Shown here piece by piece: positions 2,573-42,624 of a stretch of 43,583 nucleotides of DNA; the first letter of the stretch is position 1, and each line of letters begins with the position of its first letter. Where the stretch lies: positions 1 to 43,583 of the forward strand of contig JAENYD010000019.1 of NCBI GenBank assembly GCA_016842005.1, given 5' to 3'. The translations under genes and the position numbers were made by a program. This stretch comes from Clostridium thermobutyricum (lineage in GTDB: Bacteria > Bacillota > Clostridia > Ch29). The notes under the pieces are model-generated. The model made no database searches. It saw nothing but the letters and a program-made list of their open reading frames with translations, and was not told where the DNA came from.

Positions 2573-3493
2573 ATGAGAACAAAAAATGTTTTGGGTCTCA
2601 GGGAAATGAGCAGTGAAGACATACTGCAGATACTGGACACTGCAGTCCTCATGAAGCCCATTATGGAAACAAAGAACAAAAAGATAACCTACCTTCAGGG
2701 GAGGATTGTGACCACCCTGTTTTATGAGCCCAGCACCCGCACCAGGGTATCCTTTGAGCTGGCTGCCAAATACCTGGGGGCCACCACTACCAATATATCC
2801 ACCTCGAGCAGCAGTGTGGTTAAGGGAGAGACCCTTATAGACACAGCCAGGACACTGCAGGCCATGGGTATAGACATCCTGGTCATGAGACATCCCATGA
2901 CAGGGGCCCCCAGGCTGCTGGAGAAGCACCTGGATGCGATAATACTAAACGGCGGAGACGGCATCAACGAGCATCCCACCCAGGCTCTGCTGGACATTTT
3001 CACCATGAGGCGGCACAAAGGAAGAATAAAAGACCTGAAGGTGGTAATTACCGGAGATATACTTCACAGCAGGGTAGCCCGCAGTAATATATGGGGTCTT
3101 ACCAAACTGGGGGCCCGGGTGGCTGTGGCGGGACCGGCCACGCTGATACCCAGGGATATAGAAAAACTGGGTGTGGAAGTATATCATGACGCCCGGGAAG
3201 CGGCAGAAGATGCCGATGTGGTTATGGCACTGAGGATTCAGCTTGAGAGGCAGAAAAGCGGTCTGTTCCCCTCTTTGAGAGAATATAGTATGCTCTTCGG
3301 CGTCAATGAAAGGACCCTGGAAAAGGCAAAGGAGGATGTGCTGATAATGCACCCGGGCCCGGTCAACCGGGGGGTAGAACTGCCCAGTTCCCTGATTGAC
3401 GGTGTCAATTCGGTAATAGAAGAGCAGGTAACAAACGGGGTGCTGGTGAGAATGGCCCTGCTGTACCTGCTGACCAGGAAAGGAGAGGTATAA
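2573..3493 (+). CDS. pyrB: Aspartate carbamoyltransferase catalytic chain
   Basis: A 306-residue cytosolic enzyme that joins carbamoyl phosphate and aspartate, the first committed step of UMP synthesis. Visible motifs are the carbamoyl-phosphate loop STRTR (about residues 54-58), HPTQALLD near residue 132 and HPGPVNRG near residue 262. The length matches the unregulated Bacillus-type trimeric enzyme, and no pyrI regulatory chain is present in the window. Translation starts at ATG 2573 after GGAGGTG. Its stop overlaps the start of pyrC by one base (TAATG), so the two are translationally coupled. Confidence 0.97.
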   Translation: MRTKNVLGLREMSSEDILQILDTAVLMKPIMETKNKKITYLQGRIVTTLFYEPSTRTRVSFELAAKYLGATTTNISTSSSSVVKGETLIDTARTLQAMGIDILVMRHPMTGAPRLLEKHLDAIILNGGDGINEHPTQALLDIFTMRRHKGRIKDLKVVITGDILHSRVARSNIWGLTKLGARVAVAGPATLIPRDIEKLGVEVYHDAREAAEDADVVMALRIQLERQKSGLFPSLREYSMLFGVNERTLEKAKEDVLIMHPGPVNRGVELPSSLIDGVNSVIEEQVTNGVLVRMALLYLLTRKGEV

Positions 3494-4761
3494 TGAGCAA
3501 ACTGCTTATAAAAAACGGCAGGGTGATAGACCCTTTGAGCAATACCGACAGGGTTATGGACATACTGGTGGATGGAAACAGGATAATTAAAATGGAAGCC
3601 TCAATCCCGGGGAACGACTGTGAAGTGATTGATGCTAGAGACAAACTGGTTTTTCCCGGCCTTATTGATATGCACGTACATCTCAGGGAACCGGGGTATG
3701 AGCATAAGGAGACCATAGAAAGCGGGACCCGCAGCGCTGCGGCCGGCGGATTTACCACGGTGGTATGCATGCCCAATACCAATCCGGTTATAGATAACCC
3801 TGCCATGATGGAATATATTAAGCTGAAGGCGGAAAAAGAAGGCCACGTAAGAGTAAAGGTTGTGGCCGCCATAACCAAAGGCTCCAAGGGGGAAGAACTG
3901 TCTCCCATGGGTGAGATGGCAGGTTACGGGGCAGTGGCATTCTCTGACGACGGTAAACCGGTAACCAGCAGCATCCTCATGAAGCGGGCCATGGAATATG
4001 CTTCCATGTGGGATGTACCCATAATCTCCCACTGCGAAGACCTGGACCTCAGAGGGGATGGACTGATGAATGAAGGGGAAATGTCTACAATACTGGGGAT
4101 GAGGGGTATACCGTCTGCAGCAGAGGAGGTAATGGTGGCAAGGGACATTGCCCTGGCAAGGTATACGGGGTGCAGGCTGCATATAGCGCATATCAGCACC
4201 GGATATTCGGTGGAAATGGTAAGGCATGCCAAGGCGGAAGGGGTACAGGTTACTGCTGAAGCGACTCCCCATCACTTCAGCCTTTCTGACAGGGCGGTGG
4301 ACGGGTACAGCTCCATGACCAAGGTCAATCCTCCTTTGAGAACCGAAGCCGATGTGGAAGCCGTAAAAAAAGGTCTGGCTGACGGCACCATAGATGTGAT
4401 AGCCACCGACCATGCTCCCCATCACAGGGACGACAAGGAAGTGGAGTACAGCCTTGCAGCCTTTGGTATTTCCGGTCTGGAAACGGCAGTATCTCTGGCA
4501 GTGACCAACCTGCTCAAACCGGGAGTTCTGACACCACTCCAGATGGCGGAAAGAATGAGCCTGGCACCGGCACAGATTCTGAAGATTGACGGGGGATACC
4601 TGAAGGAAGGGGGACCGGCGGATATAACAATTATTGACCCGGACTGCGAAGTTGTGGTAGATGCAGAAAAATTCGCATCAAAAGGCAGAAATACACCCTT
4701 TGGCGGTATGAAGCTGTGGGGAAAGGTAACCCATACAATTGTTGACGGGAAGATAAAATAA
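3493..4761 (+). CDS. pyrC: Dihydroorotase
   Basis: A 422-residue type I dihydroorotase, the zinc amidohydrolase that closes carbamoyl-aspartate to dihydroorotate. The metal-binding HVH is at residues 61-63 followed by LREPG, and the late metal/catalytic site is ATDHAPHH near residue 304. Length and motifs fit the Bacillus PyrC family, and all expected ligands I can check are present, so it should be active rather than a PyrB-partner pseudo-dihydroorotase. Start is coupled to pyrB by a one-base overlap. A 149-bp gap with an inverted repeat separates it from pyrF. Confidence 0.96.
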   Translation: MSKLLIKNGRVIDPLSNTDRVMDILVDGNRIIKMEASIPGNDCEVIDARDKLVFPGLIDMHVHLREPGYEHKETIESGTRSAAAGGFTTVVCMPNTNPVIDNPAMMEYIKLKAEKEGHVRVKVVAAITKGSKGEELSPMGEMAGYGAVAFSDDGKPVTSSILMKRAMEYASMWDVPIISHCEDLDLRGDGLMNEGEMSTILGMRGIPSAAEEVMVARDIALARYTGCRLHIAHISTGYSVEMVRHAKAEGVQVTAEATPHHFSLSDRAVDGYSSMTKVNPPLRTEADVEAVKKGLADGTIDVIATDHAPHHRDDKEVEYSLAAFGISGLETAVSLAVTNLLKPGVLTPLQMAERMSLAPAQILKIDGGYLKEGGPADITIIDPDCEVVVDAEKFASKGRNTPFGGMKLWGKVTHTIVDGKIK

Positions 4762-4764
4762 ACG

Positions 4765-4833
4765 GTTGCATATATATACAATATAATGTATAATTATAAG
4801 AAATGAAATTGTATTCCCTCAGGTATATGCAAC
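4765..4833 (+). promoter_or_regulatory. Inverted repeat and possible internal promoter in the pyrC-pyrF gap
   Basis: GTTGCATATA (4765-4774) is the exact reverse complement of TATATGCAAC (4824-4833), with an AT-rich interior. A TATAAT at 4789-4794 lies 16 bp after TTGCAT, a weak -35. The 149-bp gap is by far the longest inside the operon after pyrB, so an RNA structure or extra promoter is plausible. No PyrR-type element is visible here. Confidence 0.3.
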
Positions 4834-4910
4834 TGCTTTACCGGCGGCACTATTACGAAGTTTATGCTCAGCCTGAATGAGGTAACATTTTATCAAGGCG
4901 GTGATGACAG

Positions 4911-5807
4911 TTGTTTGTTGACAGATTGATTGAGAAGATTAAAGACAGGGGAAATCCGTCGGTACTGGGGCTGGACCCGAGGATGGAACTGATACCTCCC
5001 TGTGTGAGGGATGGCCTGGGAAATAGCGAAGAGGACCTGGGAACGGCAGTTTTCCGGTTTAACAGGGCTTTGATAGACGCAGTGGTTGATGTTGTACCTG
5101 CCGTAAAACTGCAGATTGCCTTCTATGAAGCCATGGGTATAGAAGGACTGAAAGCGTACCGGAGGACCATAGAATATGCAAGAGGAAACGGGTTGCTTGC
5201 AATCGGCGATGTAAAGAGAGGGGATATTTCTTCCACCGCCCGGGCCTACAAACAGGCCCACCTTGACGGCCCCTTTGCCTGTGACGCTGTAACGCTCAAC
5301 CCCTTTATGGGATATGATGCCCTGGAGCCCTTCATAAAGGCATGTGAAGAAGAGGGCAAGGGAGTATTCATCCTGGTGAAGACATCTAACCCATCTTCGG
5401 GTGAGCTGCAAAACCTGGTGACAGAAAACGAATATTTATACATAAAACTTGCACGGAAGGTTGCCGGATGGGGCAGAGGTGCGGTAGGCAGATACGGGTA
5501 CAGTTCGGTCGGAGCGGTGGTAGGGGCGACATACCCGAAAGAACTGGCTGCCCTCCGAAAGGAGATGCCCGGGACCTTCTTCCTGGTACCCGGATACGGT
5601 GCCCAGGGAGGGGGCGGTAAAGAGGTGGTTAACGCCTTTAACCCTGACGGACTGGGGGCGGTGGTGAATTCATCCCGGGCAATTATGGGGGCCTATCTGA
5701 AAGACGGAAAAGGTGAAGGGGTAACCCTGGAGGAATTCAAGGACAGTGCCCGCAGGGAGGCAATCAGAATGAGGCAGGATATTATGAAAGAGTTGAAGGA
5801 GATATAA
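4911..5807 (+). CDS. pyrF: Orotidine 5'-phosphate decarboxylase (type 2)
   Basis: A 298-residue TIM-barrel decarboxylase that makes UMP from OMP. The catalytic Asp/Lys array appears as GDVKRGDISSTA around residues 99-110 (Lys102, Asp105), and the C-terminal phosphate-binding part as VPGYGAQGG. Its length and sequence fit the longer type 2 family rather than the 230-residue Bacillus type. Translation starts at TTG 4911, 7 nt after AAGGCGGTG; an ATG seven bases upstream leads to an immediate stop. The gene order with pyrF before carA differs from Bacillus, where pyrF lies near pyrE. Confidence 0.93.
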   Translation: MFVDRLIEKIKDRGNPSVLGLDPRMELIPPCVRDGLGNSEEDLGTAVFRFNRALIDAVVDVVPAVKLQIAFYEAMGIEGLKAYRRTIEYARGNGLLAIGDVKRGDISSTARAYKQAHLDGPFACDAVTLNPFMGYDALEPFIKACEEEGKGVFILVKTSNPSSGELQNLVTENEYLYIKLARKVAGWGRGAVGRYGYSSVGAVVGATYPKELAALRKEMPGTFFLVPGYGAQGGGGKEVVNAFNPDGLGAVVNSSRAIMGAYLKDGKGEGVTLEEFKDSARREAIRMRQDIMKELKEI

Positions 5808-5828
5808 ATTTCTGGGAGGATGATTTGA

Positions 5829-6923
5829 ATGAAAGCCTATCTGGTGCTGGAAGACGGTAATGTATTTGAAGGGAAGGCCTTTGGCGAAACCGGTGATACC
5901 CTGGGCGAAGTGGTATTCAACACAGGGATGACGGGATACCAGGAGATCCTCACCGACCCTTCCTATGAGGGTCAGATTGTGGTAATGACCTATCCCCTCA
6001 TCGGTAATTACGGTGTTTTTGCGGGGCATAACGAATCCGTAAAGCCCCGGGTCAAGGGATTTGTGGTGAGGGAGTTCTACAGGGATGTTACCGGCTGGCA
6101 GAACGGGGACAACATTGAAGAATATATGAAAAAACACGGCATAATGGGCATTGAAGATGTGGATACAAGGGCTCTTACCAGGATTATCAGGGAAAAGGGC
6201 ACCATGAAAGGGATAATAACAACAGCACAGGAATTCAGCAAAGAGAAGCTGATGAATAAAATAAAGGGTTTTGAGAACAAGGATGCGGTTATGAATGTTA
6301 CCACCGACGAAGTTTATCATATAAAGCCCAGGTGTCTGAACGTGGCGGTCCTTGATTTCGGAGTCAAGAAGAGCATACTTCATTCATTGACCAACAGGTT
6401 TTGTAATGTGAACGTATTCCCGGCCTTTGCGACTCCCCAGCAGATACTGAGCCTGGACCCCGACGGCATATTACTGTCCAACGGTCCGGGGGACCCCAAG
6501 GAAATGATGATGGCCGTTGACAATATAAAGGAACTTCTTTACAAAAAACCTATAATGGGTATCTGCCTGGGACATCAGATGCTGGCCCTGGCGCTGGGCG
6601 GGGACACCTATAAAATGAAGTACGGCCACAGGGGCTGCAATCATCCCGTGAAAGACCTGAACAAGGACAGGGTCTATATAACCTCCCAGAATCACGGGTA
6701 TGTAGTGGATGCCGGCAGTCTGAACCCGGAGAAGATAGAGATAACCCATACAAACATGAACGACGGTACGGTGGAAGGCTTCAGGCACAAGCAACTTCCC
6801 ATAATGAGTGTCCAGTTTCACCCCGAGGCGGCTCCGGGTCCGCAGGACACCCAGTACCTGTTCGACAGTTTTATGGATATGATGGCAGCACACAAGAGGG
6901 GGAAACAATACAATTATGCCTAA
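5829..6923 (+). CDS. carA: Carbamoyl phosphate synthase small (glutaminase) subunit
   Basis: A 364-residue subunit that hydrolyses glutamine and channels ammonia to the large subunit. The N-terminal CarA domain covers about residues 1-150 ([17 protein letters not shown]). The class I amidotransferase domain holds the nucleophile Cys246 in GICLGHQM and the His331/Glu333 pair in FHPEA. A GGGAGGATG site precedes ATG 5829. It overlaps carB by 8 bases. As the only carbamoyl phosphate synthase in the window, and PyrR-controlled, it probably serves pyrimidines; also known as pyrAA. Confidence 0.96.
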
Positions 6924-9900
6924 GAATAATAACATAAAAAAAGTACTGGTTATTGGTTCAGGGCCGATAATTATAGGTCAGGCTGCGGAGTTTGACTATT
7001 CAGGCACTCAGGCCTGCCAGGCTCTGAGAGAAGAGGGAATAGAGGTTGTACTGATAAACAGCAATCCTGCCACCATAATGACCGACAGGCAGGTGGCGGA
7101 CAAAGTATATATTGAACCCATTACACCGGAATTTGTGGAAAGGATAATAGAACGGGAGCGGCCGGACAGTCTTCTTCCCACCATGGGAGGGCAGACCGGC
7201 CTTAATATTGCCATGGAACTGGCGGAAAGAGGTGTGCTTTTCCGGTACGGGGTCAACCTTATCGGTACTGATATTCACTCCATCACCCAGGCCGAGGACA
7301 GGGAACAGTTCAAAAGGCTTATGGAAAGGATAAATCACCCCATAGTCGAAAGCCGTATAGTGACGAAGGTGGAAGAAGGGGTGGAGTTTGCGGAGCAGAT
7401 CGGATTTCCCGTTATTATACGCCCCGCCTATACCCTGGGGGGAACCGGCGGAGGCATAGCCCGGGACGTCAGACAACTGAAAGAGATCCTGAAGCTGGGA
7501 CTTAGCCTGAGCCGCGTTGGCCAGGCTATTGTTGAGAAGAGCATTATCGGATGGCGGGAAATAGAGTATGAAGTGATGAGGGACAGCAAGGGGAACTGCA
7601 TAACAGTGTGCAACATGGAGAACATAGACCCTGTGGGTATTCACACCGGGGATAGCATAGTAATAGCCCCTTCCCAGACCCTGAACGACAGGCAGTACCA
7701 GATGCTTAGATCGGTTTCCCTTGAGATAATATCCGCCCTGGGGATAGAGGGGGGCTGCAACATACAGTTCGCCCTTCACCCCACAACCGACCGGTATTAT
7801 GTAATAGAGGTAAACCCCAGGGTCAGCCGGTCCAGCGCCCTTGCTTCCAAGGCCACGGGGTATCCCATAGCCAAGGTGGCGGCAAAGATAGCCGTGGGGT
7901 ACAGCCTGGAGGAAATCGAGAACAGGGTTACCGGTAAAACCAAGGCCTGTTTCGAGCCTACCCTGGATTATGTGGTGATAAAGGTGCCCCGGTGGCCTTT
8001 TGACAAGTTTGTGGAAGGGGAAAGGAACCTGGGTACCAGAATGAAGGCCACCGGGGAGGTAATGGCCATATCCAACTCATTCCAGAGTGCGCTCCTAAAG
8101 GCTGTCCGTTCCCTGGACATCGGACTGGAGAGCCTGGACCTGGATAGAATAAAAGATATGGACCGGGATAACATAAGGAAGAGACTCCGGGAAGGGGACG
8201 ACGAAAGGCTTTTCGTCATATCCAGGGCACTGAAACTGGGAATGGATGTGGAAGAGGTCTGCAGTCTTACAGGCATACACCCTTTCTTCATATCCAAGAT
8301 ACAGCAGATCGCCCTGTATGAGGAATATCTCAAAGGTAAGGAGTTTTCGGACCTGTCAGAGGAAGAGATTATCAGGGCCAAGAGGATGGGGTTCTCGGAC
8401 AGGGCCATTGCCAGGTTTACATCCACCACACCGGGAGAAGTGTACAAATACAGGCTGGAACACGGTATATTGCCTGTATACAAGATGGTGGATACGTGCG
8501 GGGCCGAGTTCCAGGCCACATCCCCGTATTATTATTCTACCTATGACAGGGAGGATGAGGCGGAACCCACCGACAGCAGAAAGATAATGGTAATCGGCTC
8601 CGGACCCATCAGGATAGGACAGGGAATAGAGTTTGACTACTGCTCGGTACACTGTGTAAAGGCCCTGAACAGGATGGGGATTGAAACAATCATAGTGAAT
8701 AATAACCCCGAGACGGTGAGCACCGATTTTGACGTGTCCGACCGGCTGTATTTCGAGCCTATAACAGAAGAAGATATAATGGGTATAATCAGTAAGGAAA
8801 AGCCCGAAGGGGTAATCCTCCAGTTCGGGGGGCAGACTTCCATAAAGCTGGCCCGTTATATGGATGAAATGGGCGTAAAAGTACTGGGTACCCATCCCAG
8901 GTTTATCGATATGGCAGAAGACAGGAAAAAAATGGACCTACTTCTGGAGGAACTGGACATACCCAGGCCGAAGGGTACGGGAGTCAACAGTGTGGAGGAA
9001 GGTATAACCGAGGGTGAGAAGCTGGGATACCCGCTGCTCATAAGGCCTTCGTACGTCCTGGGGGGGCAGGGTATGGAGATAGTACACAACAGGCAGGACC
9101 TGGAGAGCTACCTCAAATTTGCCTACAGCTATCCCCAGGAGCATCCGGTACTCATCGACAGGTACCTGACAGGCAAAGAGGTGGAGGTTGATGCCATATG
9201 CGACGGGGAAAAAGTACTTATACCCGGGATAATGGAGCACCTGGAAAGGGCCGGGGTCCATTCGGGGGACAGCATATCCATATATCCTCCGGTGAGCCTG
9301 TCCGAAGATATAAAGGAAACCATTGTTGAGTACACCAGGAAACTGGCACTGGCTATGGAAGTAAAAGGTATAGTAAACATACAGTATGTAGTCTTTGAGG
9401 GTAATGTATACGTCATAGAGGTGAACCCCAGGTCCAGCCGTACTGTGCCTTATATAAGCAAGGTTACAGGGGTGCCCATGATAGACGTGGCCACCAGGGT
9501 GTCCCTGGGAGAGCGTCTTGACAGCATGGGATACGGAGACGGCCTTTACCCGGAAGCACCCGTATGGGCTGTAAAGGTACCGGTATTCTCCATGGACAAA
9601 CTGCCGGAAGTGGAAGTGGGCCTGGGCCCGGAAATGAAGTCCACCGGTGAAGTGCTGGGTATAGGGGAAAATGTTCACCAGGCGCTGTACAAAGGCCTTG
9701 TGGCTGCCGGCGTAAAAATACCTCGTGAAGGGCGGGTCCTTGTATCTCTTTCGGACATAAACAAAGAGGAGTTTCTCCCCACTGCCCGGGTCCTGTATGA
9801 CCAGGGATTTGAACTGACAGGGACCGAAGGCACCGCCAATTACCTTAACAGGCACGGTATATCCTGCAGTACTGTGAAGAAGCTGGGGGAAGGCACACCG

Positions 9901-10137
9901 GACATACTGGACCTGGTTTACAGCGGTGAGGTGGTAATGATCATAAATACCCCTACCCGGGGCAGGGGTTCCAGGAGTGACGGCTTCAAGATACGGAGGG
10001 CTGCCATAGAAACGGGCATAACCTGTTTTACATCCCTTGACACAGCTAGGGCTGTAACGGATATAATAAAAAGAGATATAAAGTCGGATAGCATGAGAAT
10101 ATTCAATCTGGAGGAATATACCGGTGAAATCGGTTAG
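6916..10137 (+). CDS. carB: Carbamoyl phosphate synthase large subunit
   Basis: A 1073-residue full-length synthase. Two homologous ATP-grasp halves are visible, each opening with a nucleotide/glycine motif ([17 protein letters not shown] near residue 14 and [16 protein letters not shown] near residue 561). An oligomerisation segment lies between them and a C-terminal allosteric MGS-like domain starts around residue 930 ([12 protein letters not shown]). It uses two ATP, bicarbonate and ammonia to make carbamoyl phosphate. The start overlaps carA and the stop overlaps pyrK by 14 bases, so the block is tightly coupled. No truncation is seen. Also known as pyrAB. Confidence 0.97.
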
Positions 10138-10903
10138 AATGCTGCCCGTAACAGAGAATATTGAAATCGCAGAGGGTATTTTCAGCATGAAACTGTACTC
10201 ACCCGAGTTCGCCGCCCGGGTGAAGCCGGGACAGTTTTTCCACATAAGGTGCGGCGGTGAAAAGTTTCCCCTCCTGCGGAGGCCCATAAGCCTTGCCTTC
10301 ACCATGCCTGAAGAAGAAAGTTTCGTTATGGTATACAGGGTGGAGGGACAGGGGACTGCATACCTTTCCGGGCTTGAACAGGGTGACAGGCTGGATGTTA
10401 TGGGGCCTTTGGGTAGGGGTTTCCATGTGGACAGAGGTCTCAGGAAGGTTGCAATGGTAGGGGGAGGTATGGGTATCGCTCCCCTTGTGGAACTGGCCGG
10501 GGTTTATGGTAACAGGGCAGAGGTTTTTCTGGGGTATCGGGATACCCCGTTTTTGTTGCAGGAAATGAGTCACAGAACAGGGAATATATATATTTCCACC
10601 GAAACCGGTACAGCCGGGCATAAGGGGTATATAACCGACCTTCTGCCCGGACAGCTGGGAAAAATGCAGCCGGATATGGTCTACTGCTGCGGACCCGGGC
10701 CCATGATGAAGAAAACGGTTGAAATATGCAGGCAGTTGGGTCTTAAGTGCCAGGTGTCCCTGGAAGAGAGAATGGGCTGCGGTATAGGGGCTTGTCTGGT
10801 GTGCAGCTGTGCTACCAGGGATGAAAAGGGCATGAAAACCTATTCCCGCGTATGCAGGGATGGCCCGGTTTTCTGGGCGGAGGAGGTGCTGATGGATGAC
10901 TGA
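10124..10903 (+). CDS. pyrK: Dihydroorotate dehydrogenase B electron transfer subunit PyrK
   Basis: A 259-residue flavin/iron-sulfur subunit that passes electrons from PyrD to NAD. The FAD-binding RPISL lies at residues 53-57, the NAD-binding region at GGGMGIAP (113-120), and the [2Fe-2S] ligands are Cys219, Cys224, Cys227 and Cys244, spaced as in Bacillus PyrK. It starts at GTG 10124, inside the end of carB, after GGAGG. Its stop overlaps pyrD by 8 bases. The presence of PyrK identifies the neighbouring PyrD as the NAD-linked class 1B enzyme, suited to anaerobic growth. Confidence 0.95.
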
Positions 10904-11810
10904 TGTGGATATGACGGTTAACATTGCGGGTATGGAGATGAAGAACCCTGTGATGACCGCATCCGGCACCTTCGGGTTCGGAGAGGAGTACGGGGAGTTT
11001 TATCCACTGGAAAAGCTGGGAGCTGTGGTTGTAAAGGGGCTTACCCTTAAGCCGCGCATAGGCAATCCCCCTCCCAGGATTGCCGAAACCCCGGCGGGAA
11101 TACTCAACAGTGTGGGACTGCAGAATCCCGGTATAGACCGGTTTCTGGAAGAAGAATTGCCCCGCCTCATGTCATCGGGAACCAACATAATAGCCAATAT
11201 ATCCGGGAACAGCGCCGAGGAATACTGTATACTGGCAGAGAAACTCAATATTTCGGGGGTGGCGGCAATAGAGCTGAACCTCTCCTGTCCCAATGTGAAG
11301 GAGGGAGGGATGGCCTTCGGACTGCAGGCCGATACCGTTTGCCGGGTAACCGGTGAAGTGCGGAAGGTCAGCGGGAAACCCCTGATTGTCAAGCTTTCTC
11401 CCAATGTCACCGATATAGTGGAAATAGCCCTGGCAGCCCGGGAAGGGGGGGCGGATGCCCTTTCTCTTATAAATACCCTCCTGGCCATGGACATTGATAT
11501 CAGGAGCCGGAAGCCTGTGCTGGCAAATATAATGGGGGGTCTTTCAGGGCCTGCCGTTAAGCCGGTAGCCCTGCGGATGGTATATCAGGTGTCCGGGGCT
11601 GTAGACATACCGGTCATAGGCATGGGCGGGATAACCGACTGGAAGGACGGGGTGCAGTTTCTGCTGGCGGGGGCCAGTGCCATAGCGGTGGGCACTGCCA
11701 GCTTTGTAAACCCGTACGCACCGGTGGAGATTGTGGAAGGCATAGAACGATACATCAGGGAGGCAGGATTTGATTCTGCACGGGATATTGTGGGAAAACT
11801 GGAATGCTGA
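10896..11810 (+). CDS. pyrD: Dihydroorotate dehydrogenase (class 1B) catalytic subunit
   Basis: A 304-residue FMN TIM-barrel that oxidises dihydroorotate to orotate. The catalytic base is Cys131 in LNLSCPNVK, the hallmark of class 1 enzymes, and the N-terminal TASGTFGFG and C-terminal GMGGI / GTASFVNP motifs bind FMN. Start ATG 10896 follows GGAGGAGG and overlaps pyrK. It works as a heterotetramer with PyrK. The next operon gene, the unknown kinase, begins 35 bp downstream. Confidence 0.96.
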   Translation: MTDVDMTVNIAGMEMKNPVMTASGTFGFGEEYGEFYPLEKLGAVVVKGLTLKPRIGNPPPRIAETPAGILNSVGLQNPGIDRFLEEELPRLMSSGTNIIANISGNSAEEYCILAEKLNISGVAAIELNLSCPNVKEGGMAFGLQADTVCRVTGEVRKVSGKPLIVKLSPNVTDIVEIALAAREGGADALSLINTLLAMDIDIRSRKPVLANIMGGLSGPAVKPVALRMVYQVSGAVDIPVIGMGGITDWKDGVQFLLAGASAIAVGTASFVNPYAPVEIVEGIERYIREAGFDSARDIVGKLEC

Positions 11811-11845
11811 CAGCGGACCAAATGTAAAAGCCGGGGTGGGATATT

Positions 11846-12775
11846 ATGTACGGCTATAATCACAGAAAAGTGAAGGAAACTGCAGAAAAAATACTGGGCA
11901 GGCGTCTGGATGCGGTGCCGGTGGGCAACCACCAGCTGGAGCGGCATCTGGTCTACCGCCTTGAAGATAAAGAGGGGACTTCCTTCATCTTCAAGCTGTA
12001 CTTCAGAAAGAACCGGTGGAACCGGGAAGTCGCCTCGTTGAAGCTGCTGTCGGGAAGCAACGTCAAATCACCCGGCCTGATAGATTACGGGGTGCTGAAA
12101 GATGGCACCGAGTGGCTGATTACAGAATTTGTAGAGGGGGAACCCTTTTTCAGGGTGCAGGATGTCATCGGCCGGGAAGGCCGGCTTTCCATATACGAGG
12201 ACATGGGCAGGGAAATAGGCAAAATCCACAGTTTCAGGGAATTCGACTTTTTCGGTAACTGGGATGAAGAGGGAAACAGCATTCAGGCGCAGACCGATTA
12301 CCCCTATGTTTTCATCAGAAGGGCTGAGATTACCATATCCAACCTCCTGGAACAGCACCTGCCCGAACATGCACTGCACAGGAAGGCTGCGGAGGTGCTG
12401 AGGGGGAAATATGACCTCATCAGGGATGTAACAACCGCCCGATTGTGTCACAATGATTACGATGAGAGGAATGTGCTGGTAAGGGAGGCTTCCGGCCGGT
12501 GGGAAGTGACGGCGGTGCTGGACTTCGAGCAGAGCCTGCCCTGGGATAAGGACAGGGATATAGCAGACCTGTACCATGCCCTCACCGTCAGGGGAGATGA
12601 ATACAGGGATGCCTTTCTGAAGGGATATGAGTGCTACAGTTCCCTGGAAGAGGGTTTTTACAGAAAACTGGACTTTTACCTGATTTATTCGGGTATTAAC
12701 ATATGCAGCTGGGCCTATGAACCGGCCCCGGATTATTACCGGCAGGGGCTGAAGCTCCTTGAAGAGTTTGTGTGA
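11846..12775 (+). CDS. APH-fold small-molecule kinase in the pyr operon
   Basis: A 309-residue protein of the aminoglycoside phosphotransferase / choline kinase fold. The ATP-binding lysine is likely Lys50 (FIFKLY), the catalytic loop is CHNDYDERN at residues 201-209 (His202, Asp204, Asn209) and the metal-binding DFE is at 226-228. All are intact, so it is probably an active kinase acting on a small hydroxylated compound. It sits in the same direction, 35 bp after pyrD and overlapping the pyrE upstream region, so it is presumably cotranscribed under PyrR control. I know no standard pyrimidine role for this fold. A nucleoside or pyrimidine-linked metabolite kinase is only a guess; antibiotic resistance is unlikely in this place. 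Confidence 0.8.
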   Translation: MYGYNHRKVKETAEKILGRRLDAVPVGNHQLERHLVYRLEDKEGTSFIFKLYFRKNRWNREVASLKLLSGSNVKSPGLIDYGVLKDGTEWLITEFVEGEPFFRVQDVIGREGRLSIYEDMGREIGKIHSFREFDFFGNWDEEGNSIQAQTDYPYVFIRRAEITISNLLEQHLPEHALHRKAAEVLRGKYDLIRDVTTARLCHNDYDERNVLVREASGRWEVTAVLDFEQSLPWDKDRDIADLYHALTVRGDEYRDAFLKGYECYSSLEEGFYRKLDFYLIYSGINICSWAYEPAPDYYRQGLKLLEEFV

Positions 12776-12789
12776 TGGAGGGGATTTAT

Positions 12790-13368
12790 ATGGACAAGAA
12801 AGATATAATGGAAATCTTCCAAAAAACGGGGGCTGTGATGAAAGGACATTTTCTCCTGACATCAGGCCTTCACAGCGATACATATATACAATGTGCCCGT
12901 GTACTGCAGTATCCTGAATACACGGGGCAGCTGGTGCAGAATATTGTCTCCGCCTTTGGGGGGGAAGCCGTCGACCTGGTTGTGGGACCGGCTGTGGGAG
13001 GTATCATCGTTGCCTATGAAACCGGGAGGCAGCTGGGAGTTCCCGCCCTTTTCACCGAGAGGGAGAACGGAAGGATGACCCTGAGAAGAGGGTTTGATAT
13101 TTCTCGAGGGGCCCGGGTACTGGTGGTTGAGGATGTTGTGACAACCGGGGGTTCTGTAAAGGAAGTAATCCAGGCGGTGGAGGATAAAGGAGGGAAAACC
13201 GTTGGTGTGGGGCTGCTTGTGGACAGGAGCGGCGGGAAAGTGGAATTCGGCGTAAGGAAGGAAGCTGTGCTCACTCTGGATGTAAAGACATACCAGCCGG
13301 GAGATGCCTGCCCTCTGTGCAGGGAAGGGACACCGGCGGTGAAGCCCGGCAGCCGGGGGCTGAAATAA
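12790..13368 (+). CDS. pyrE: Orotate phosphoribosyltransferase
   Basis: A 192-residue type I phosphoribosyltransferase that joins orotate to PRPP. The PRPP loop VVEDVVTTGGS is at residues 112-122 and the flexible-loop region ERENGRMTLRR at 90-100. The start at ATG 12790 is preferred because GGAGGGG lies 6 nt before it and the protein then begins MDKKDIMEIF as in relatives. A GTG at 12772 overlapping the kinase gene is possible but has no site of its own. Last gene of the operon. The C-terminus carries a short Cys/Gly-rich tail (CPLCREGTP) seen in the longer OPRTase subfamily. Confidence 0.95.
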   Translation: MDKKDIMEIFQKTGAVMKGHFLLTSGLHSDTYIQCARVLQYPEYTGQLVQNIVSAFGGEAVDLVVGPAVGGIIVAYETGRQLGVPALFTERENGRMTLRRGFDISRGARVLVVEDVVTTGGSVKEVIQAVEDKGGKTVGVGLLVDRSGGKVEFGVRKEAVLTLDVKTYQPGDACPLCREGTPAVKPGSRGLK

Positions 13369-13504: not shown

Positions 13505-13660
13505 ATTAAGTTTCAATCGCAGATAAAAAATCAACGAACACAGGAAAATTCTATGCTTTCAAGGTAGAGAAAAAAGTTAGGAAAAAAATTTTCCACAAAA
13601 AGCAGGAAAAAGGAAAAATATGACGGAATATACCAATAGAATATATTGGAGTATTCCACA

Positions 13661-13756
13661 GATAAAGGCAAACCTGCCGAAAGGCAGGGGCGCAAAGCTG
13701 CGGGCCTGTGGCGGGGGAAGGGTACCCCGCTATGGCAGCCGGGCTGCCGGGGATCC
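13661..13756 (+). promoter_or_regulatory. Cyclic di-GMP-I (GEMM) riboswitch
   Basis: The sequence matches the GEMM-I aptamer block by block: GGCAAACC, then a stem capped by a CGAAAG tetraloop, then GGGGCGCAAAGC, then GGGCCT, a variable GC-rich stem (GCGGGG with CCCCGC), and the closing GGCAGCCGGGCTGCC. These are the same modules in the same order as in the Vibrio Vc2 riboswitch, including the tetraloop and its receptor strand. A terminator follows 17 nt later, so ligand binding probably decides between read-through and termination. The controlled gene is the Rhs/YD surface protein. Confidence 0.9.
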
Positions 13757-13772
13757 TTTCGTCCGACAACAT

Positions 13773-13812
13773 ACCTGCCTTAACCGGTTAGCTCCGGTGA
13801 GGGCAGGTTTTT
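13773..13812 (+). terminator. Expression-platform terminator of the c-di-GMP riboswitch
   Basis: ACCTGCC (13773-13779) pairs with GGCAGGT (13802-13808). An inner ACCGG/CCGGT stem lies within and a T-run to 13812 follows. Confidence 0.85.
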
Positions 13813-13900
13813 GTATCATACCAGGAGGTGCAGTACAGGGTTCAGTCTGACCAGTTCACCGGATATAAAGGGGTAATAAAAATTGGGAGGATTGAAGGAA

Positions 13901-14674
13901 ATGAAATCAAAAACCTTTAAAAAAACCGTATCCCTCATACTGGCATTACTCCTTGTGCTGGGCGGTTTTGACGGGCTGGCGGTCTCTTTAATCCGGAATA
14001 ATGCAGCCGGTACCGGTGCATACGCATCCCCGGCCGGCAGCACAGGGCCTACCGGCCGGCTTTCCGGGCCGGATGAAGAAGGCAAAACACCCCACCCCAC
14101 AAAGGATTTCGTAAAAGACATGGTGGAAGGCAGAAAAGAACTTAAGGAAAAGCGTACCCAAAACAGTAAAACCTTCATGGATAATAAGGGTAAGAAATCA
14201 CAGCTCATCTTTGCGGACAGGGTGCACTTCAAAGGCCAGAGCGGCCGGTGGGAAGACATAGACAACACCGTAACAGAGCTTAACCAGGGCAGCCCCCGTG
14301 CAGCAGGCATGTCAGCCTTTAAGTACATAAACAGTGCCAACGATTACAGTGCAATGTTTTCAGGAAACGGCACGCCTTCCGTAGCCTTCGGATACAAGGG
14401 TACCCGTATGACCTTCTCCCCCGAAGGTGCAAATGACAGTATCCCTCTGGTGGAAGGTAACGCCGTACTCTACCCCGGTATATTCGAAGGCACAGACCTG
14501 GAATACCGCGTCCTTAACAGCAGGCTCAAAGAAGACATAATACTCAATAAATATACCGGCAAAACCTCATTTGCATTCAGCATAAAAACAGAAGGCCTTA
14601 ACCTAGTACAGGAAGGCAGTGTAATCCCGGGCCCAGCTCAGCCTGTACAAGATAACCCGGTGGGACAGCAGTGA
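13901..14674 (+). CDS. Fragment 1: signal peptide and N-terminal domain of the Rhs protein
   Basis: The frame starts at ATG 13901, 10 nt after GGGAGG, and encodes a basic N-terminus (MKSKTFKKT) with a long hydrophobic core (SLILALLLVLGG), so the protein is exported. The following 200 residues match the N-terminal region common to clostridial Rhs wall proteins (RTQNSKTF, GRWEDIDNTV, LEYRVLNSRLKEDIIL). It ends abruptly in PVQDNPVGQQ where the correct frame is lost. Confidence 0.7.
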   Translation: MKSKTFKKTVSLILALLLVLGGFDGLAVSLIRNNAAGTGAYASPAGSTGPTGRLSGPDEEGKTPHPTKDFVKDMVEGRKELKEKRTQNSKTFMDNKGKKSQLIFADRVHFKGQSGRWEDIDNTVTELNQGSPRAAGMSAFKYINSANDYSAMFSGNGTPSVAFGYKGTRMTFSPEGANDSIPLVEGNAVLYPGIFEGTDLEYRVLNSRLKEDIILNKYTGKTSFAFSIKTEGLNLVQEGSVIPGPAQPVQDNPVGQQ

Positions 14675-14747
14675 AAAAACCGCATACCTATACAGCATAA
14701 CAGAGAACAAACCCCTGCACACCATCACATGGAACAACCGGCCCTCA

Positions 14748-15590
14748 TTGTCCGGTTCCATAAGCAGTACCACCATAAACCCCTCAAAGGGTACATACAC
14801 ATGGGACATAACATCTGCAGTGAAGAAATGGGTAACCGGTGAAGAGCCCAACTACGGCCTTGCCCTGAAATCCCATAACAACTCATCCACCCGTGCGGAA
14901 GTGTTCGCATCCAGTGAATCATCCTACCCCCAGCCGTATATATACGTAGAATACGACGACCAGGGCGGCGGGCAGGAGCCCCCTCCGGGTGATGACCCTT
15001 ATGTCACCCTGGAAAAAGTGGAAAAGGACAGTATGGAAGACAGAGAAATAACCGTAAAGGGCCGTGCCTACGATACGGAATATATAGAATATACACTGTA
15101 CAAAAACGGTAATGTGGACAAAGAAGGTACCATAAACCATGGCGGCAGCTGGTATAAACAGTTCACACTGCAAAAAGATACAATATACCGGGTAAAGGCA
15201 GTACCGGTAAGAATAGACGAGATAGAACACCAGGACGAGGAGAGCAATACCTGGACCGAGGAAATAGAGGTCCGGGGCGACAGCGAAAGGACAGACCCCT
15301 TCCTCATCTACCAGGCCCAGGACGGTGACAACATATTCAGCATAATATACCACTACTACCTGAAACAAAACCCCAATATCAGCCAGTGGGAGTACATGGA
15401 AAAGAGGGGCAAACTTCTGGATGCAAACAAAGACCTGCCCCAGGCATCCGACGGTGCACCCATAATAAAGGTGGGCCAGTATATTTTAATACCAGACCCT
15501 GACACCGACCGGCCCGCATCCGATGATAAGCCCATGACCATAACAGAAGCAATAGAAGAATACAGAAGAATACAGAAGAATACTGGGTGA
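14748..15590 (+). CDS. Fragment 2: DNRLRE-like domain and linker of the Rhs protein
   Basis: The meaningful frame is already open from about 14640 (LYKITRWDSSEKTAYLY). The first possible start codon, TTG 14748, has no ribosome site, so this piece is not translated on its own. DITSAVKKWVTGEEPNYGLA is a typical DNRLRE/carbohydrate-binding-type signature, then comes an Ig-like stretch, then a LysM-like segment (FLIYQAQDGDNIFSIIYHYY ... ILIPDPD). The frame ends in the 10-bp repeat at 15554-15583. Confidence 0.6.
   Translation: MSGSISSTTINPSKGTYTWDITSAVKKWVTGEEPNYGLALKSHNNSSTRAEVFASSESSYPQPYIYVEYDDQGGGQEPPPGDDPYVTLEKVEKDSMEDREITVKGRAYDTEYIEYTLYKNGNVDKEGTINHGGSWYKQFTLQKDTIYRVKAVPVRIDEIEHQDEESNTWTEEIEVRGDSERTDPFLIYQAQDGDNIFSIIYHYYLKQNPNISQWEYMEKRGKLLDANKDLPQASDGAPIIKVGQYILIPDPDTDRPASDDKPMTITEAIEEYRRIQKNTG
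15554..15583 (+). repeat. Three perfect copies of a 10-bp repeat causing a frameshift
   Basis: AGAAGAATAC occurs three times in tandem. With two copies the reading frame would run without a break from AIEEYRRI into LGDDVSIWPELEPINPHTG; with three it shifts by one base and stops at 15588. Confidence 0.9.
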
Positions 15591-15684
15591 CGATGTAAGC
15601 ATATGGCCCGAACTGGAGCCCATAAACCCCCATACGGGGAACTACTTCGCCATACAGACAGACCTGAGCCTTGACAGCCCGGGT

Positions 15685-16992
15685 ATGCCCTTATCCCTTA
15701 AGCGTACATACAACACCCAGGCGGACAGGGATTACATGGGCATCTTCGGCAGAAGATGGTCCTTCATATACGACAGGAAGCTCTCATTCTTCCCCGACGG
15801 ATGCATAGGCATGACCACAGGCGACGGCGACACCCTGTACTTCAGAGAGCAGGGCAGCGGCGGCTACAGCCTCCCCCACGGTATACAGGGCAGCTTTGAA
15901 AAGTATTCATCAGGGTATGTATACACAGACAAAAACGGTATAACATACCGCTTCAACGAGGCAGGGTTCTTGCAGGACATAACCGACAGGAACAATAACA
16001 CCATCAGCTTCACATACAACCAGGCAGGCCTCATAAACGTGATAACCGATACCGCCGGCAGGGACATTCTGCTTAACTACAACAGCAACAGGCTGGTAAC
16101 CGACATATTCCTCCCCGGAGACAAGTCCCTTCATTACAGCTACGACAGCAGTGGTAACCTCACAGAATTCACCAACCTGGACGGTAACACCACCCGGTAC
16201 ACATACGATACAAAAGACAGGCTGGTACACTTGATAGACCCCCGGGGCAGCAGCTGGGTGGAAAACACCTACGACAGCCAGGACAGGGTAATACGGCAGA
16301 AAGACCAGTTCGGCAACATATCATACATAGAATACAGTGACGGTTATACAGACATAACCGATGCCAGGGGCAATACAAAAACCATATACTATGACCAAAG
16401 ATACAGGCTGACAAAGACGGTACATCCCGAAGGAGAAATAGAACAGTACTCCTATGACAGCGACGACAACAGGAAAACATACACAGACCCCGAAGGTAAC
16501 CTGTACAGATACGAATATGACGGTCGGGGCAACCTTGTAAAAATGACAGACCCCGAGGGCAATACCGTAGAATATACATGCGACAACTTAAGCAACATAA
16601 CCCGGATAAAAGACCCCGAAGGTAATATCACAACCCTTGACTATGACAGCAAAGGAAACTTAAGGAAAATAACCGATCCCCAGGGTAATGAGGCCACCTA
16701 CTCATACAACAGCAAAGGCCAGGTAACATCAATAACCGACCCGGAGGGCGGTATAACCACATACCACTACGACAGCCAAGGCAACCTCACCCAGGTAACA
16801 AATCCCGATGGAAACAGTATAAAATACACCCGCGATGCCCTCGGCAGGGTAACAGGCCTTGAGGATGCCATGGGCAGCTTCACCCGTATAATAACCCGGG
16901 CATCAGGCCTTCCCCGGTACATACAGATGCCCGAGGGTGTTGCGGCGACTACCGGGCAGAGTACCGGTATGATGCAAACGGTAACAGGATAA
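15685..16992 (+). CDS. Fragment 3: RHS/YD-repeat shell
   Basis: The frame is open from 15556 through the 10-bp repeat. It carries the DUF6531-like entry (LSLDSPGMPLSLKRTYN, FGRRWSFIYD) and then about 20 repeats of the form YDxxGNLxxxTDPEGNxxxY that build the hollow Rhs cocoon. The ATG at 15685 lies inside conserved sequence and has no ribosome site. The last 40 residues (ITRASGLPRYIQMPEGV) lead into a frame loss around 16940. Confidence 0.7.
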   Translation: MPLSLKRTYNTQADRDYMGIFGRRWSFIYDRKLSFFPDGCIGMTTGDGDTLYFREQGSGGYSLPHGIQGSFEKYSSGYVYTDKNGITYRFNEAGFLQDITDRNNNTISFTYNQAGLINVITDTAGRDILLNYNSNRLVTDIFLPGDKSLHYSYDSSGNLTEFTNLDGNTTRYTYDTKDRLVHLIDPRGSSWVENTYDSQDRVIRQKDQFGNISYIEYSDGYTDITDARGNTKTIYYDQRYRLTKTVHPEGEIEQYSYDSDDNRKTYTDPEGNLYRYEYDGRGNLVKMTDPEGNTVEYTCDNLSNITRIKDPEGNITTLDYDSKGNLRKITDPQGNEATYSYNSKGQVTSITDPEGGITTYHYDSQGNLTQVTNPDGNSIKYTRDALGRVTGLEDAMGSFTRIITRASGLPRYIQMPEGVAATTGQSTGMMQTVTG

Positions 16993-17153
16993 AACTAACA
17001 GAACCCGGCCACAGAGAGACAATATATACCTACGACTATGAGGACAGGCTGCTTACCCTTTACCGGCACAGGATAAAACAGCCGGTAGAAGACAGCGGGA
17101 CACAGGATACCGGAGAAGATCAGGAAGATACTGAAGAACCTGCTGAGCCGGTA

Positions 17154-17843
17154 ATGCAGCCTGCTGTCAACAAGCCCGACAAGGTAAAGGGAAATGGTAA
17201 GGGCAATAACAACAATACAGGTAAAACAGATACATCCCCGGAAGAAGAGACAACCCTTCAAAACCAGGCCCTTTACGGGCTGCCGTGGGAAGGCAATGAA
17301 GACATATACCAGACCTTCGGCTATGACGGTGACGGTAACAGGCTGTTCTCCACCGTAACCATAACAAAATATGCACCGCCCTTTGAAGAGGACATGCCCC
17401 TGCCTCCCGGCAAAGAAAAGGACAATAACGGAAAAGGCAAGGGAAACAGCGGTAATAACGGTAAGGGTAACGATAAGAAGCAGCTTACCCTCATGTCGGT
17501 ACCCCAATTAATAATATACATGGCCAAATCGGACAACGGCAAAGGCAAGGGAGGAGGCGGCAATAACGGGAAAGGCAGTGACAACAGTAAGGGTAACAGC
17601 AGTGACAAAGGCAGTAACAACAACGGTAACGCTTACGGCAAGACAAAAGAAAAGACCAACAACGGCCTGCACCTGGGCTGGTACAATAGGCCTGACCACC
17701 CCCACTACCCCGGGGATATGCCTCCCGGCTGGCAGGTAGAAGAAGAATTCAGGGCAGCAAACTACGTAACCGACATAAACAGGGACTACCCTGAAGTGCT
17801 TATGGTATCCGATGAGGAAGAGAACCGGCCTCTTACTTCCTGA
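17154..17843 (+). CDS. Fragment 4: C-terminal YD repeats with a GKGN-rich insert
   Basis: The true frame is open from about 16945 (DYRAEYRYDANGNRIKLTE). Two low-complexity blocks rich in Gly, Lys and Asn (17180-17230 and 17405-17640) interrupt the repeat region. These are probably flexible, positively charged linkers that could touch wall polymers. The protein stops at 17843 after AANYVTDINRDYPEVLM, just where intact Rhs proteins continue into the core and toxin-like tip. Confidence 0.6.
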   Translation: MQPAVNKPDKVKGNGKGNNNNTGKTDTSPEEETTLQNQALYGLPWEGNEDIYQTFGYDGDGNRLFSTVTITKYAPPFEEDMPLPPGKEKDNNGKGKGNSGNNGKGNDKKQLTLMSVPQLIIYMAKSDNGKGKGGGGNNGKGSDNSKGNSSDKGSNNNGNAYGKTKEKTNNGLHLGWYNRPDHPHYPGDMPPGWQVEEEFRAANYVTDINRDYPEVLMVSDEEENRPLTS

Positions 17844-17927: not shown

Positions 17928-18407
17928 ATGAAGAGTAATAACATATATGACTTTATTATTAGGAACATCAAAACCTTTTTTTATCCGGAGGACTGGCTGG
18001 AGCTTGATTTGAATTTTTCCAAAACCGAACTGATGACCCTGCTGGTGGTGGAACGGCAGGGGGAACTGAGTATGAGCCAGATCTGCGATGCTATGAATAT
18101 GCCTATGAGTACCGCCACCGGTATTGTGGACCGTATGGTGAAGAAGGGGATTTTGCAGAGGGAACGCAGTGAAACCGACCGGAGGATTGTTGTGGTCAAT
18201 ATGACCGAAAAGGGCAGGGAAATCATTGAGCATTATGTAGGAGTGTTAAACAGCTATCTTGAACAGATTGAAGCGTCTCTGACCGAGGAAGAACAGCAGC
18301 TTTTGTATAAGATTTTCCTGAAAATCGCTGATATTTTGAGCCGGAAAGGAAAGGCGGAAGATGAAACGGCATCAGTGCCGCTCATTAACAAGATAGAAAT
18401 CGAGTAA
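17928..18407 (+). CDS. MarR-family transcriptional regulator
   Basis: A 159-residue protein with the winged-helix DNA-binding fold: the recognition-helix region MSMSTATGIVDRMVKKG is close to residues 60-76 and the wing is RERSETDRRIVVV (about 80-92). Terminal helices at both ends form the usual dimer interface. MarR proteins mostly repress and are released by a small ligand or by oxidation; no cysteine suitable for redox sensing is obvious apart from one in the HTH region. A GGGGGA site precedes ATG 17928. Shared sequence words upstream of this gene and the next suggest it regulates itself and the ArsA-type gene. Confidence 0.88.
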   Translation: MKSNNIYDFIIRNIKTFFYPEDWLELDLNFSKTELMTLLVVERQGELSMSQICDAMNMPMSTATGIVDRMVKKGILQRERSETDRRIVVVNMTEKGREIIEHYVGVLNSYLEQIEASLTEEEQQLLYKIFLKIADILSRKGKAEDETASVPLINKIEIE

Positions 18408-18424
18408 ACTTTATCCGCTGAACA

Positions 18425-18447
18425 GCCCATTTTGTGGGCATTTCTTT
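18425..18447 (+). terminator. Weak hairpin terminator after the MarR gene
   Basis: GCCCA (18425-18429) pairs with TGGGC (18435-18439), followed by ATTTCTTT. The short stem suggests partial termination. Confidence 0.4.
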
Positions 18448-18521
18448 AACGGAATAATACGAGTAACGTAATATACATGATTCGAAATATATAAGCGAAA
18501 TTAAAACAGGGAGGAATCAGA

Positions 18522-19712
18522 ATGAGAATTATTTTGTATACCGGTAAAGGTGGAGTTGGCAAAACCAGCATTGCCGCCGCTACGGCATTAAAAAGCGCCC
18601 GGCAGGGGCTGAAGACCCTGGTGATAAGTACAGATGCGGCCCACAGCCTGGGAGACTGCCTGGACAGGAAGCTGTCCCCCGAGCCGGTGGAGATTGAGTC
18701 CAACCTCTGGGCCCAGGAGATTGATGCCATCCACGAGGTGGAAAAAGGTTGGGGGCTGGTGCAGGATTATTTCACCAGATTATTCACTTCAAAGGCGGTA
18801 AAGGATATCACCACTGAAGAGCTGACGGTGTTCCCGGGTATGGAGGACCTGTTAAGCCTGCTCAGGATTCTCAACTATTACAGGAACAAGACCTTTGATA
18901 TCATCATTATCGACTGTGCTCCCACGGGAGAAACCCTGGCACTGCTGAGTTTCCCGGATATGTTTCGCTGGTGGATGGAAAAACTGTTCCCCATAAAGCG
19001 TAAGGCTGCGAAGATTGCCAAACCTATAGTGGAGCCCCTGATGGGGATTCCGATGCCCGGAGACGATGTGATGGTGGAATTTGAGCGGATATACCATCAA
19101 CTGGATGAGATGAGGCAGATATTCACCGACCGGGAGACCACAAGCATACGGATTGTTGTGAACCCGGAAAAAATGGTGGTGAAGGAGGCCCAGCGCAGTT
19201 TTACCTATCTGAACCTGTACGACTACAAGGTGGATGCCGTTATAGTGAACCGGGTGTTTCCCGACAGGGTAACCGACTCATATTTCAGCCTCTGGAAGGA
19301 TATACAATCCAGGTATATGGATATGATCAGGGAGAGTTTCAGCCCGGTGCCCATCTTCAGTGCACCCTGGTTTGAGAAAGAGGTGGTTGGCCTGGAGATG
19401 CTGGCACGGATGGCGGAAACCATCTTTGCCAAAAAAGATCCGGTATCGTTGTTCTACCAGCAGCAGACCCAGCAGTACCAAAAAGAAGGCGACCATTATT
19501 TGCTGTCTATATACATGCCCTTTACCGACAAGGGGGATTTGTCCCTCAGCCAGAAGGGGGACGAACTGATTATCCGGGTGGGTCTGATAAAACGTACCCT
19601 CACCCTGCCGCGCACCCTGAGAAGTTATACGGTCCAGGGGGCAAAATTTGAAAAGGACCGGTTGAATATAATATTAAGGGGGGAAAAAGATGGAGAAGAA
19701 CCTGCTGAGTAG
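18522..19712 (+). CDS. ArsA/Get3-family ATPase
   Basis: A 396-residue deviant-Walker P-loop ATPase. The P-loop GKGGVGKTS is at residues 8-16, the switch I region is STDAAHSLGD near 41-50, and the switch II region IIDCAPTGETLALLSFPD is near residue 128. The last 75 residues form an HSP20-like beta domain (DLSLSQKGDELIIRVG) seen in bacterial ArsA homologues. The arsenite-binding cysteine triad of classical ArsA is not evident and no arsB, arsC or arsR lies nearby, so a role in arsenite export is unlikely. Targeting or handling of a membrane protein or metal cluster is more plausible. It overlaps a 70-residue gene by 23 bases. Confidence 0.85.
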   Translation: MRIILYTGKGGVGKTSIAAATALKSARQGLKTLVISTDAAHSLGDCLDRKLSPEPVEIESNLWAQEIDAIHEVEKGWGLVQDYFTRLFTSKAVKDITTEELTVFPGMEDLLSLLRILNYYRNKTFDIIIIDCAPTGETLALLSFPDMFRWWMEKLFPIKRKAAKIAKPIVEPLMGIPMPGDDVMVEFERIYHQLDEMRQIFTDRETTSIRIVVNPEKMVVKEAQRSFTYLNLYDYKVDAVIVNRVFPDRVTDSYFSLWKDIQSRYMDMIRESFSPVPIFSAPWFEKEVVGLEMLARMAETIFAKKDPVSLFYQQQTQQYQKEGDHYLLSIYMPFTDKGDLSLSQKGDELIIRVGLIKRTLTLPRTLRSYTVQGAKFEKDRLNIILRGEKDGEEPAE

Positions 19713-41325: not shown

Positions 41326-41870
41326 TTGGCAGATATACATGGATGGTAGATTTGGGAGTGTCCATAACTTTGTGTAGTGCGGCCGGGCAAGGTCGCTAAT
41401 TCTAGTGGGTGCAAGCCCCACCAGGGTAATGCTTAACCAGCAGCCCTGTAGCCAGTTCTTGGAGGCTTTCAGGTAACTGAAAGTTTTAAGCGTAGAACGG
41501 CAAAATAGCGGGCCGAAAGCGTAAGCTGAAGTGATTGAGCCTCGAAATGTTAGTCGAGAATGGCCGATGTGGTTACACACACAGAAGGCAATATCAGTGC
41601 AGACGATATGGTGAGTCTTTACTGACGCTCCGGGGTCTAAGAGCTCGGCACGCTAACATCGAGAATTGGCGGTAACCCGGGAGACCCTGTCTTTTCCTGA
41701 TAACGGGTATGCCCTACAAGCGATAATCAAGCAAGGAAGGCAAAAGAGAGGCAGGGAGTCGGATGGCTGAATAGTATCGATGAAGCGGCGTAATGGCTGT
41801 GGAGAAAAGGCAGTCACACAAGGAGACCTTTGCAAAGGACACAATTACCATACACAGAGGTGGAAGCTAA

Positions 41871-42563
41871 TTGGAAACAAAACTTGCAAGGATAGCACAA
41901 GTAGCAAAAGAACGACCCGGGGAAAAGTTTACAAGTCTGGTCCATTTAATTGATGTGGATATGCTGCTGAAATGCCATCATGAGCTTAATGGGAACAAAG
42001 CATCCGGCATAGACGAAGTAACTAAAGCCGAATACGAGGAAAACCTTTTAGAGAATATCAAAATGCTGCATGCATCCCTAAAGAAGATGGCATATAAACC
42101 GCAAGCAGTCAGACGTGTATACATTCCTAAACCAGGAAGTAACAAGAAACGGCCTCTTGGCATTCCGGCCTATGAAGACAAAATAGTCCAGTTAGCGGTT
42201 AGCAAAATATTGTCGGCCATATATGAACAGGATTTTCTTGATAATTCATATGGATTTCGCCCCGGTCGGAGCTGTCATGATGCCTTGCGCAGACTGAATA
42301 ACATCATAATGACAAAGAAAATCAATTGGGTGGTAGACGCCGACATAAGCGGGTTTTTCGACCACGTTGACCATGACTGGATGATGAAATGCCTTGAAGT
42401 CAGGATAAAGGACAGCAAGCTACTCAGGATTATCGCAAGGATGCTTAAAGCAGGTATCATCGAAGAGGGGAAATTCATGTGGGAAAAGTTTCTGTTGCTA
42501 CTCAAAGTCAAGCCACTGCCCACACCGAAAATATACGTCAGTATATTTTACGGTCAGCAGTGA
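41871..42563 (+). CDS. ltrA: Truncated group II intron reverse transcriptase/maturase
   Basis: A 230-residue remnant of an LtrA-type protein (intact ones are 420-600). It keeps reverse transcriptase blocks 0 to about 4: NKASGIDEVT, KPGSNKKRPLGIPAYEDK, NSYGFRPGRSCHDAL and the first catalytic aspartates in DADISGFFDHVDH. After IIEEGKFM (about 42478) the normal continuation to the YADD block, the X/maturase and endonuclease domains is missing, replaced by 25 unrelated residues. It therefore cannot polymerise DNA. TTG 41871 follows AGAGGTGG. Confidence 0.8.
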   Translation: METKLARIAQVAKERPGEKFTSLVHLIDVDMLLKCHHELNGNKASGIDEVTKAEYEENLLENIKMLHASLKKMAYKPQAVRRVYIPKPGSNKKRPLGIPAYEDKIVQLAVSKILSAIYEQDFLDNSYGFRPGRSCHDALRRLNNIIMTKKINWVVDADISGFFDHVDHDWMMKCLEVRIKDSKLLRIIARMLKAGIIEEGKFMWEKFLLLLKVKPLPTPKIYVSIFYGQQ

Positions 42564-42591
42564 CCGGCATAAGTGTGAAACTCCAAGTGAG

Positions 42592-42624
42592 GAGCCGTGT
42601 GCGTGAATAGCGCAAGCACGGTTC
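42592..42624 (+). ncRNA. Group II intron domain V
   Basis: GAGCCGTG (42592-42599) pairs with CACGGTTC (42617-42624, one G-U), with the upper TGCG...CGCA stem and a GAATA-type loop. This is the most conserved, catalytic hairpin of group II introns. Confidence 0.8.

Follow-up and report, generated by a model that had tools for sequence, protein, structure and literature searches.

Locus and aptamer

The window, which is the whole stretch of 43,583 bp that was analyzed, carries a c-di-GMP-I (GEMM-I) riboswitch aptamer at 13657-13752 on the forward strand, followed by an intrinsic terminator and the remains of an Rhs gene. The region at 2573-13368 holds pyrimidine biosynthesis genes, namely those for a carbamoyltransferase, a dihydroorotase-like protein, the small and large chains of carbamoyl-phosphate synthase, and a dihydroorotate dehydrogenase, and a phosphotransferase-family (APH) gene at 11846-12775 adjoins a phosphoribosyltransferase gene. 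Directly after the Rhs relic, a MarR-family regulator is followed by an ArsA-type anion-transporting ATPase (17928-19712). A group II intron occupies 41411-42745, with matches to RF02005 at 41411-41645 and to RF00029 at 42590-42745; the ORFs between and after these matches possibly represent a reverse transcriptase in pieces.

A separate covariance model search of the genome with RF01051 (gathering cut-off of 35 bits) revealed a match of 79.7 bits at 13657-13751 (E 4.6e-16), which covered the full length of the model (positions 1–87 of 87). The earlier note had read all modules of the GEMM-I aptamer from the letters and had proposed a search with the GEMM-I model; the score lies above the threshold, and P2, P3, and the pocket residues could all be located. 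P2 (13668-13693) consists of six standard pairs and two closing pairs capped by a GAAA tetraloop, every pair being standard and the loop being of the GNRA type. P3, with an extra GC-rich inner hairpin, extends over 13696-13745, and all 10 of its 10 model pairs are standard. According to the Rfam alignment and the sequence, the residues G13667, A13694, and C13747 are the G, A, and C of the canonical class, and we take these three to be the pocket positions of the crystal structure. P1 is unusual. Its 5' strand (13653-13661) forms an outer helix of five pairs between AUUCC and GGGAU (13750-13754), while an A.G mismatch lies between this helix and the closing pair G13661-C13748. In a crude fixed-register count, such a mismatch near the pocket was absent from nearly all aptamers of the same register, although the duplex energy of P1 overall was no outlier among 71.

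The Rfam gathering search of the window also returned RF03167 (c-di-GMP-I-GGC; cut-off of 59 bits) with 68.5 bits at 13658-13752 (E 2.9e-14), and the Rfam clan competition label would make the aptamer a GGC variant with altered ligand recognition. Passing the RF03167 cut-off is the likeness to that class; however, in separate genome searches with each model RF01051 outscored RF03167 (again 68.5 bits) by 11 bits, and the pocket residue A13694 stands where the RF03167 consensus has G. Moreover, all six c-di-GMP-I aptamers of the genome reach the RF03167 cut-off, which thus fails to tell the classes apart. The GGC identity, which we regard as extremely improbable, was dropped on the lower score and on A13694; this residue assigns the aptamer to the canonical c-di-GMP-I class, in which it is ordinary in itself and presumably binds c-di-GMP. 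As a side observation, clan competition gives the GGC label to some of the six canonical aptamers of the genome, and GGC annotations elsewhere may likewise be wrong since canonical aptamers pass the RF03167 cut-off.

The six riboswitches above the RF01051 threshold in the genome include the window copy, and the five other aptamers (L014–L018) scored 81–91 bits. Their targets are an M23 peptidase, a flagellar (flgB-type) operon, a PA14/fibronectin-III exported protein, a PAS-GGDEF-EAL protein, and an SLH/fibronectin-III protein, so that the c-di-GMP-I set of the genome is an ordinary, compact motility and surface regulon. A further RF01051 match on contig C24, which lies within a coding region or immediately ahead of it, was rejected as it scored 22.7 bits, below the threshold. 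The window aptamer shares with its class the full-length match, the P2/P3 architecture, the GAAA loop, the pocket residues, and the downstream terminator, and the regulon in this genome likewise covers motility, surface genes, and the turnover of c-di-GMP. The window differs by the A.G mismatch in P1 and by its target, an Rhs gene that is broken here.

Leader architecture and the direction of the switch

A possible sigma-70-type promoter (ATGACG, a 16 nt spacer, and TATATT; 13620-13647, forward strand) could be read upstream of the aptamer, which would place the transcription start near 13653. The intrinsic terminator lies at 13773-13812 on the same strand and consists of a stem at 13773-13808 with 14 pairs and about -24 kcal/mol, and a T-run at 13808-13812. 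The strong terminator pointed out earlier is thus present, but its stem begins approximately 20 nt past the aptamer and not within 17 nt; the two elements do not overlap. A ribosome-binding site (GGGAGG, 13885-13890) precedes the ATG start codon of the Rhs relic at 13901. The terminators of all six riboswitches of the genome, including the flagellar one, start 16–32 nt past the aptamer.

Since aptamer and terminator do not overlap, the ligand could affect termination only by removing an antiterminator, and the placement of the terminator therefore suggests an OFF switch. Transcript folding predicted a candidate antiterminator in which AAGGCA at 13665-13670 of the aptamer pairs with UGCCUU at 13776-13781 of the terminator; this pairing appeared in transcripts ending at 13780-13798 and is incompatible with the folded aptamer. 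A shuffle test on a slightly longer segment gave p = 0.04 for the window locus and p = 0.02 for the locus of a relative (G377). When the same kind of test was applied to the aptamer 5' segment against the terminator 5' arm across 102 loci, p < 0.05 was obtained in only 12 of them, and this argues only weakly for a general antiterminator rule. According to the folding model, AAGGCA would pair with the 5' arm of the terminator in the ligand-free transcript and RNA polymerase would read through, whereas binding of c-di-GMP would keep the aptamer folded, the separate downstream terminator would form, and the Rhs gene would remain untranscribed.

The opposite direction has a precedent. In Bacillus thuringiensis, the class I switch Bc2 precedes a collagen adhesion gene, has an intrinsic terminator, and is ON (PMC4933901). 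The class I switches of Clostridioides difficile, by contrast, are all OFF (PMC6366702), so that the direction of the window switch remains one that we infer. An ON switch in the window would let c-di-GMP favor read-through, and sessile cells would then produce the Rhs protein as a surface protein resembling an adhesin. In addition to Bc2, this reading draws on some class-level relatives (G031 and G053) in which the terminators overlap the aptamer, which is the ON layout. However, the terminator is clear of the aptamer in the window as well as in the five other riboswitches of the genome, and the alternative structure predicted here is an antiterminator in competition with aptamer folding; an ON switch is accordingly considered unlikely. 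We hold it to be quite probable that the locus is a canonical c-di-GMP-I riboswitch acting as a termination-type OFF switch in the leader of a gene for an exported Rhs protein; in this strain, that gene has decayed.

The decayed Rhs gene

The Rhs gene downstream of the leader could be followed only by translation in three frames, all on the forward strand: the product runs in the first frame to about 14640, in the second to 15590, and in the third to about 16940, after which it returns to the second frame until 17843. The first open segment (13901-14674) encodes the leader and the N-terminal domain and is homologous to intact genes of relatives; this N-terminal part looks exported. Homology and domain searches placed the final third of a DNRLRE domain, with the region that comes after it, in the second segment (14625-15590), which lies in another frame. 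The third segment (15599-16992), in the third frame, contains DUF6531 and RHS/YD repeats (PF05593, E 4.1e-61; TIGR01643). The last segment (16962-17843) adds more YD-like sequence and a Gly/Lys/Asn-rich linker and stops before the RHS core end motif. Compared with the intact homologues, the last third of the DNRLRE domain is all that is kept, hundreds of residues have been lost internally, and the alignment shows no C-terminal domain. Homology to the G377 protein (2479 residues) extends no further than residue 2068, short of the RHS core end motif at residue 2161 of that protein, and the pattern of this motif is absent from the window. Thus, the exported Rhs-type product with a DNRLRE domain proposed earlier holds as to type, by the partial DNRLRE domain and PF05593, but not as a product of an open gene, as the frames are broken.

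These breaks would be assembly errors if the gene were intact in the organism. The assembly is indeed a draft of 55 contigs, and one break, near 15570, coincides with a short direct repeat. Yet several breaks occur within one gene while its neighbours are open, such as the one at 6916-10137 (1073 aa); relative to the homologues, the gene lacks its C-terminus and stretches of hundreds of residues; and the genome contains the YD part only once. Assembly errors are therefore very unlikely, and the Rhs gene of the window is a decayed relic, unable to make the full protein. Because the gene has decayed, control by the riboswitch in this strain is probably vestigial, with nothing useful now controlled.

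The RNA itself may have decayed along with the gene and lost its switching ability, as the relic downstream and the A.G mismatch by the pocket could indicate. The score of 79.7 bits is, however, close to that of the five other aptamers of the genome, P2, P3, and the pocket positions are intact, and P1 as a whole is energetically unexceptional. A dead riboswitch thus appears somewhat doubtful.

Rhs genes behind c-di-GMP riboswitches in relatives

The window aptamer belongs to a well-known class, and the interest of the locus lies in its target association. Among closer relatives, YD repeats were found downstream of the riboswitch in none of 70 other riboswitch loci, and no riboswitch was present at the leader homologues of the tested set (drawn from the same class and from three named genomes), within which L016 was the own-genome control. 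This apparent absence of the pairing was overturned by a phylum-wide sample, in which c-di-GMP-I riboswitches occurred in 297 of 398 genomes and YD/RHS genes lay downstream in 5 of 59 riboswitch loci drawn from the top-scoring list.

A protein-first survey of homologues of the window N-terminal domain and of the G377 leader, checked with Rfam, revealed a c-di-GMP-I riboswitch on the same strand, no more than a few hundred bases upstream, at all 10 of the 10 closest leader homologues. These loci belong to six genomes: G377, G206 (four copies), G471, G252, G290, and G283 (two copies). The genomes span three families (f80, f122, and f133), the window adding a fourth, and the Rhs genes at the ten loci are mostly long and open. 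The count does not include L242, a riboswitch that lies by the Rhs gene of G339 on the opposite strand. More distant homologues had no same-strand upstream riboswitch except in G363; some of the negative loci are close to contig ends, so that little sequence is available upstream of them. In G363, a c-di-GMP-II riboswitch (L258; contig C46, 2642-2723, reverse strand; RF01786, 70.7 bits) stands immediately upstream of an Rhs N-terminal domain homologue. Here, an unrelated riboswitch class with the same ligand is found with the same protein family.

With genomes of 2.7 Mb holding about four riboswitches each, accidental placement of a riboswitch was estimated to be on the order of 5e-4 per gene, which argues that the coupling is not chance, although the sampled loci are non-random and related copies are not independent. 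The pairing of a c-di-GMP-I riboswitch with an Rhs gene is real and recurrent, and the recurrence with intact genes that the earlier note had looked for in relatives was found.

The intact proteins of the relatives are 2,325–2,486 residues long, and the three checked with Pfam have a signal-peptide-like leader, DUF6531, and 21–24 RHS repeats. Comparison of four intact proteins in blocks of 100 columns revealed 53–92% identity up to the RHS core end and 13–38% thereafter. A conserved core followed by divergent C-termini characterizes Rhs polymorphic toxins, with which the intact relatives share the leader, the RHS/YD core with its conserved end motif, and the variable C-terminal domain. They therefore look like such toxins, and a toxin function may be proposed from this architecture; the leader riboswitch sets them apart. 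The plain wall protein suggested earlier as the target does not agree with these variable C-termini. The window copy retains the RHS/YD repeats but has lost the core end and the C-terminus. In one intact relative the C-terminus is a VanY/M15 peptidase domain, and in two relatives lipoprotein-like ORFs lie directly downstream of the intact Rhs gene. Split Rhs copies also occur, one in G283 and one in G206.

In the intact relatives, c-di-GMP would have direct control over a probable contact weapon, namely an exported Rhs protein whose C-terminal domain is exchangeable. In Vibrio, c-di-GMP controls TfoY and the type VI secretion system, and the contact weapon is made at low c-di-GMP (PMC6618264). 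Both cases tie the c-di-GMP level to a contact weapon; in Vibrio the signal reaches the weapon through a regulator (PMC6618264), whereas the Rhs gene has the switch in its own leader. Bc2 and the class I switches of C. difficile combine the same class I aptamer with an intrinsic terminator before genes for exported proteins or flagella, but no Rhs gene is among the targets named there for either the ON switch or the OFF switches (PMC4933901, PMC6366702). In the open-access library that was searched, no paper on a c-di-GMP riboswitch paired with an RHS/YD gene could be found; subscription papers, among them the first GEMM gene lists, lay outside the search, and the association may therefore be known already.

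The chances seem evenly balanced that c-di-GMP directly gates exported Rhs polymorphic toxins in several families of the phylum, through class I and at least one class II riboswitch, tying weaponry to the motile-sessile decision without a protein regulator, with the window as a decayed member. Rhs proteins with exchangeable C-termini are coupled to c-di-GMP repeatedly, apparently through both of its riboswitch classes, and c-di-GMP would thereby control the transcription of probable contact toxins directly in Gram-positive-type bacteria. The proposal predicts that read-through of the Rhs leader tracks the c-di-GMP level.

Two of the G206 leaders, L256 and L257, were also found to contain extra sequence between the terminator and the Rhs start codon, which resembles an inserted repeat and is partly common to both copies.
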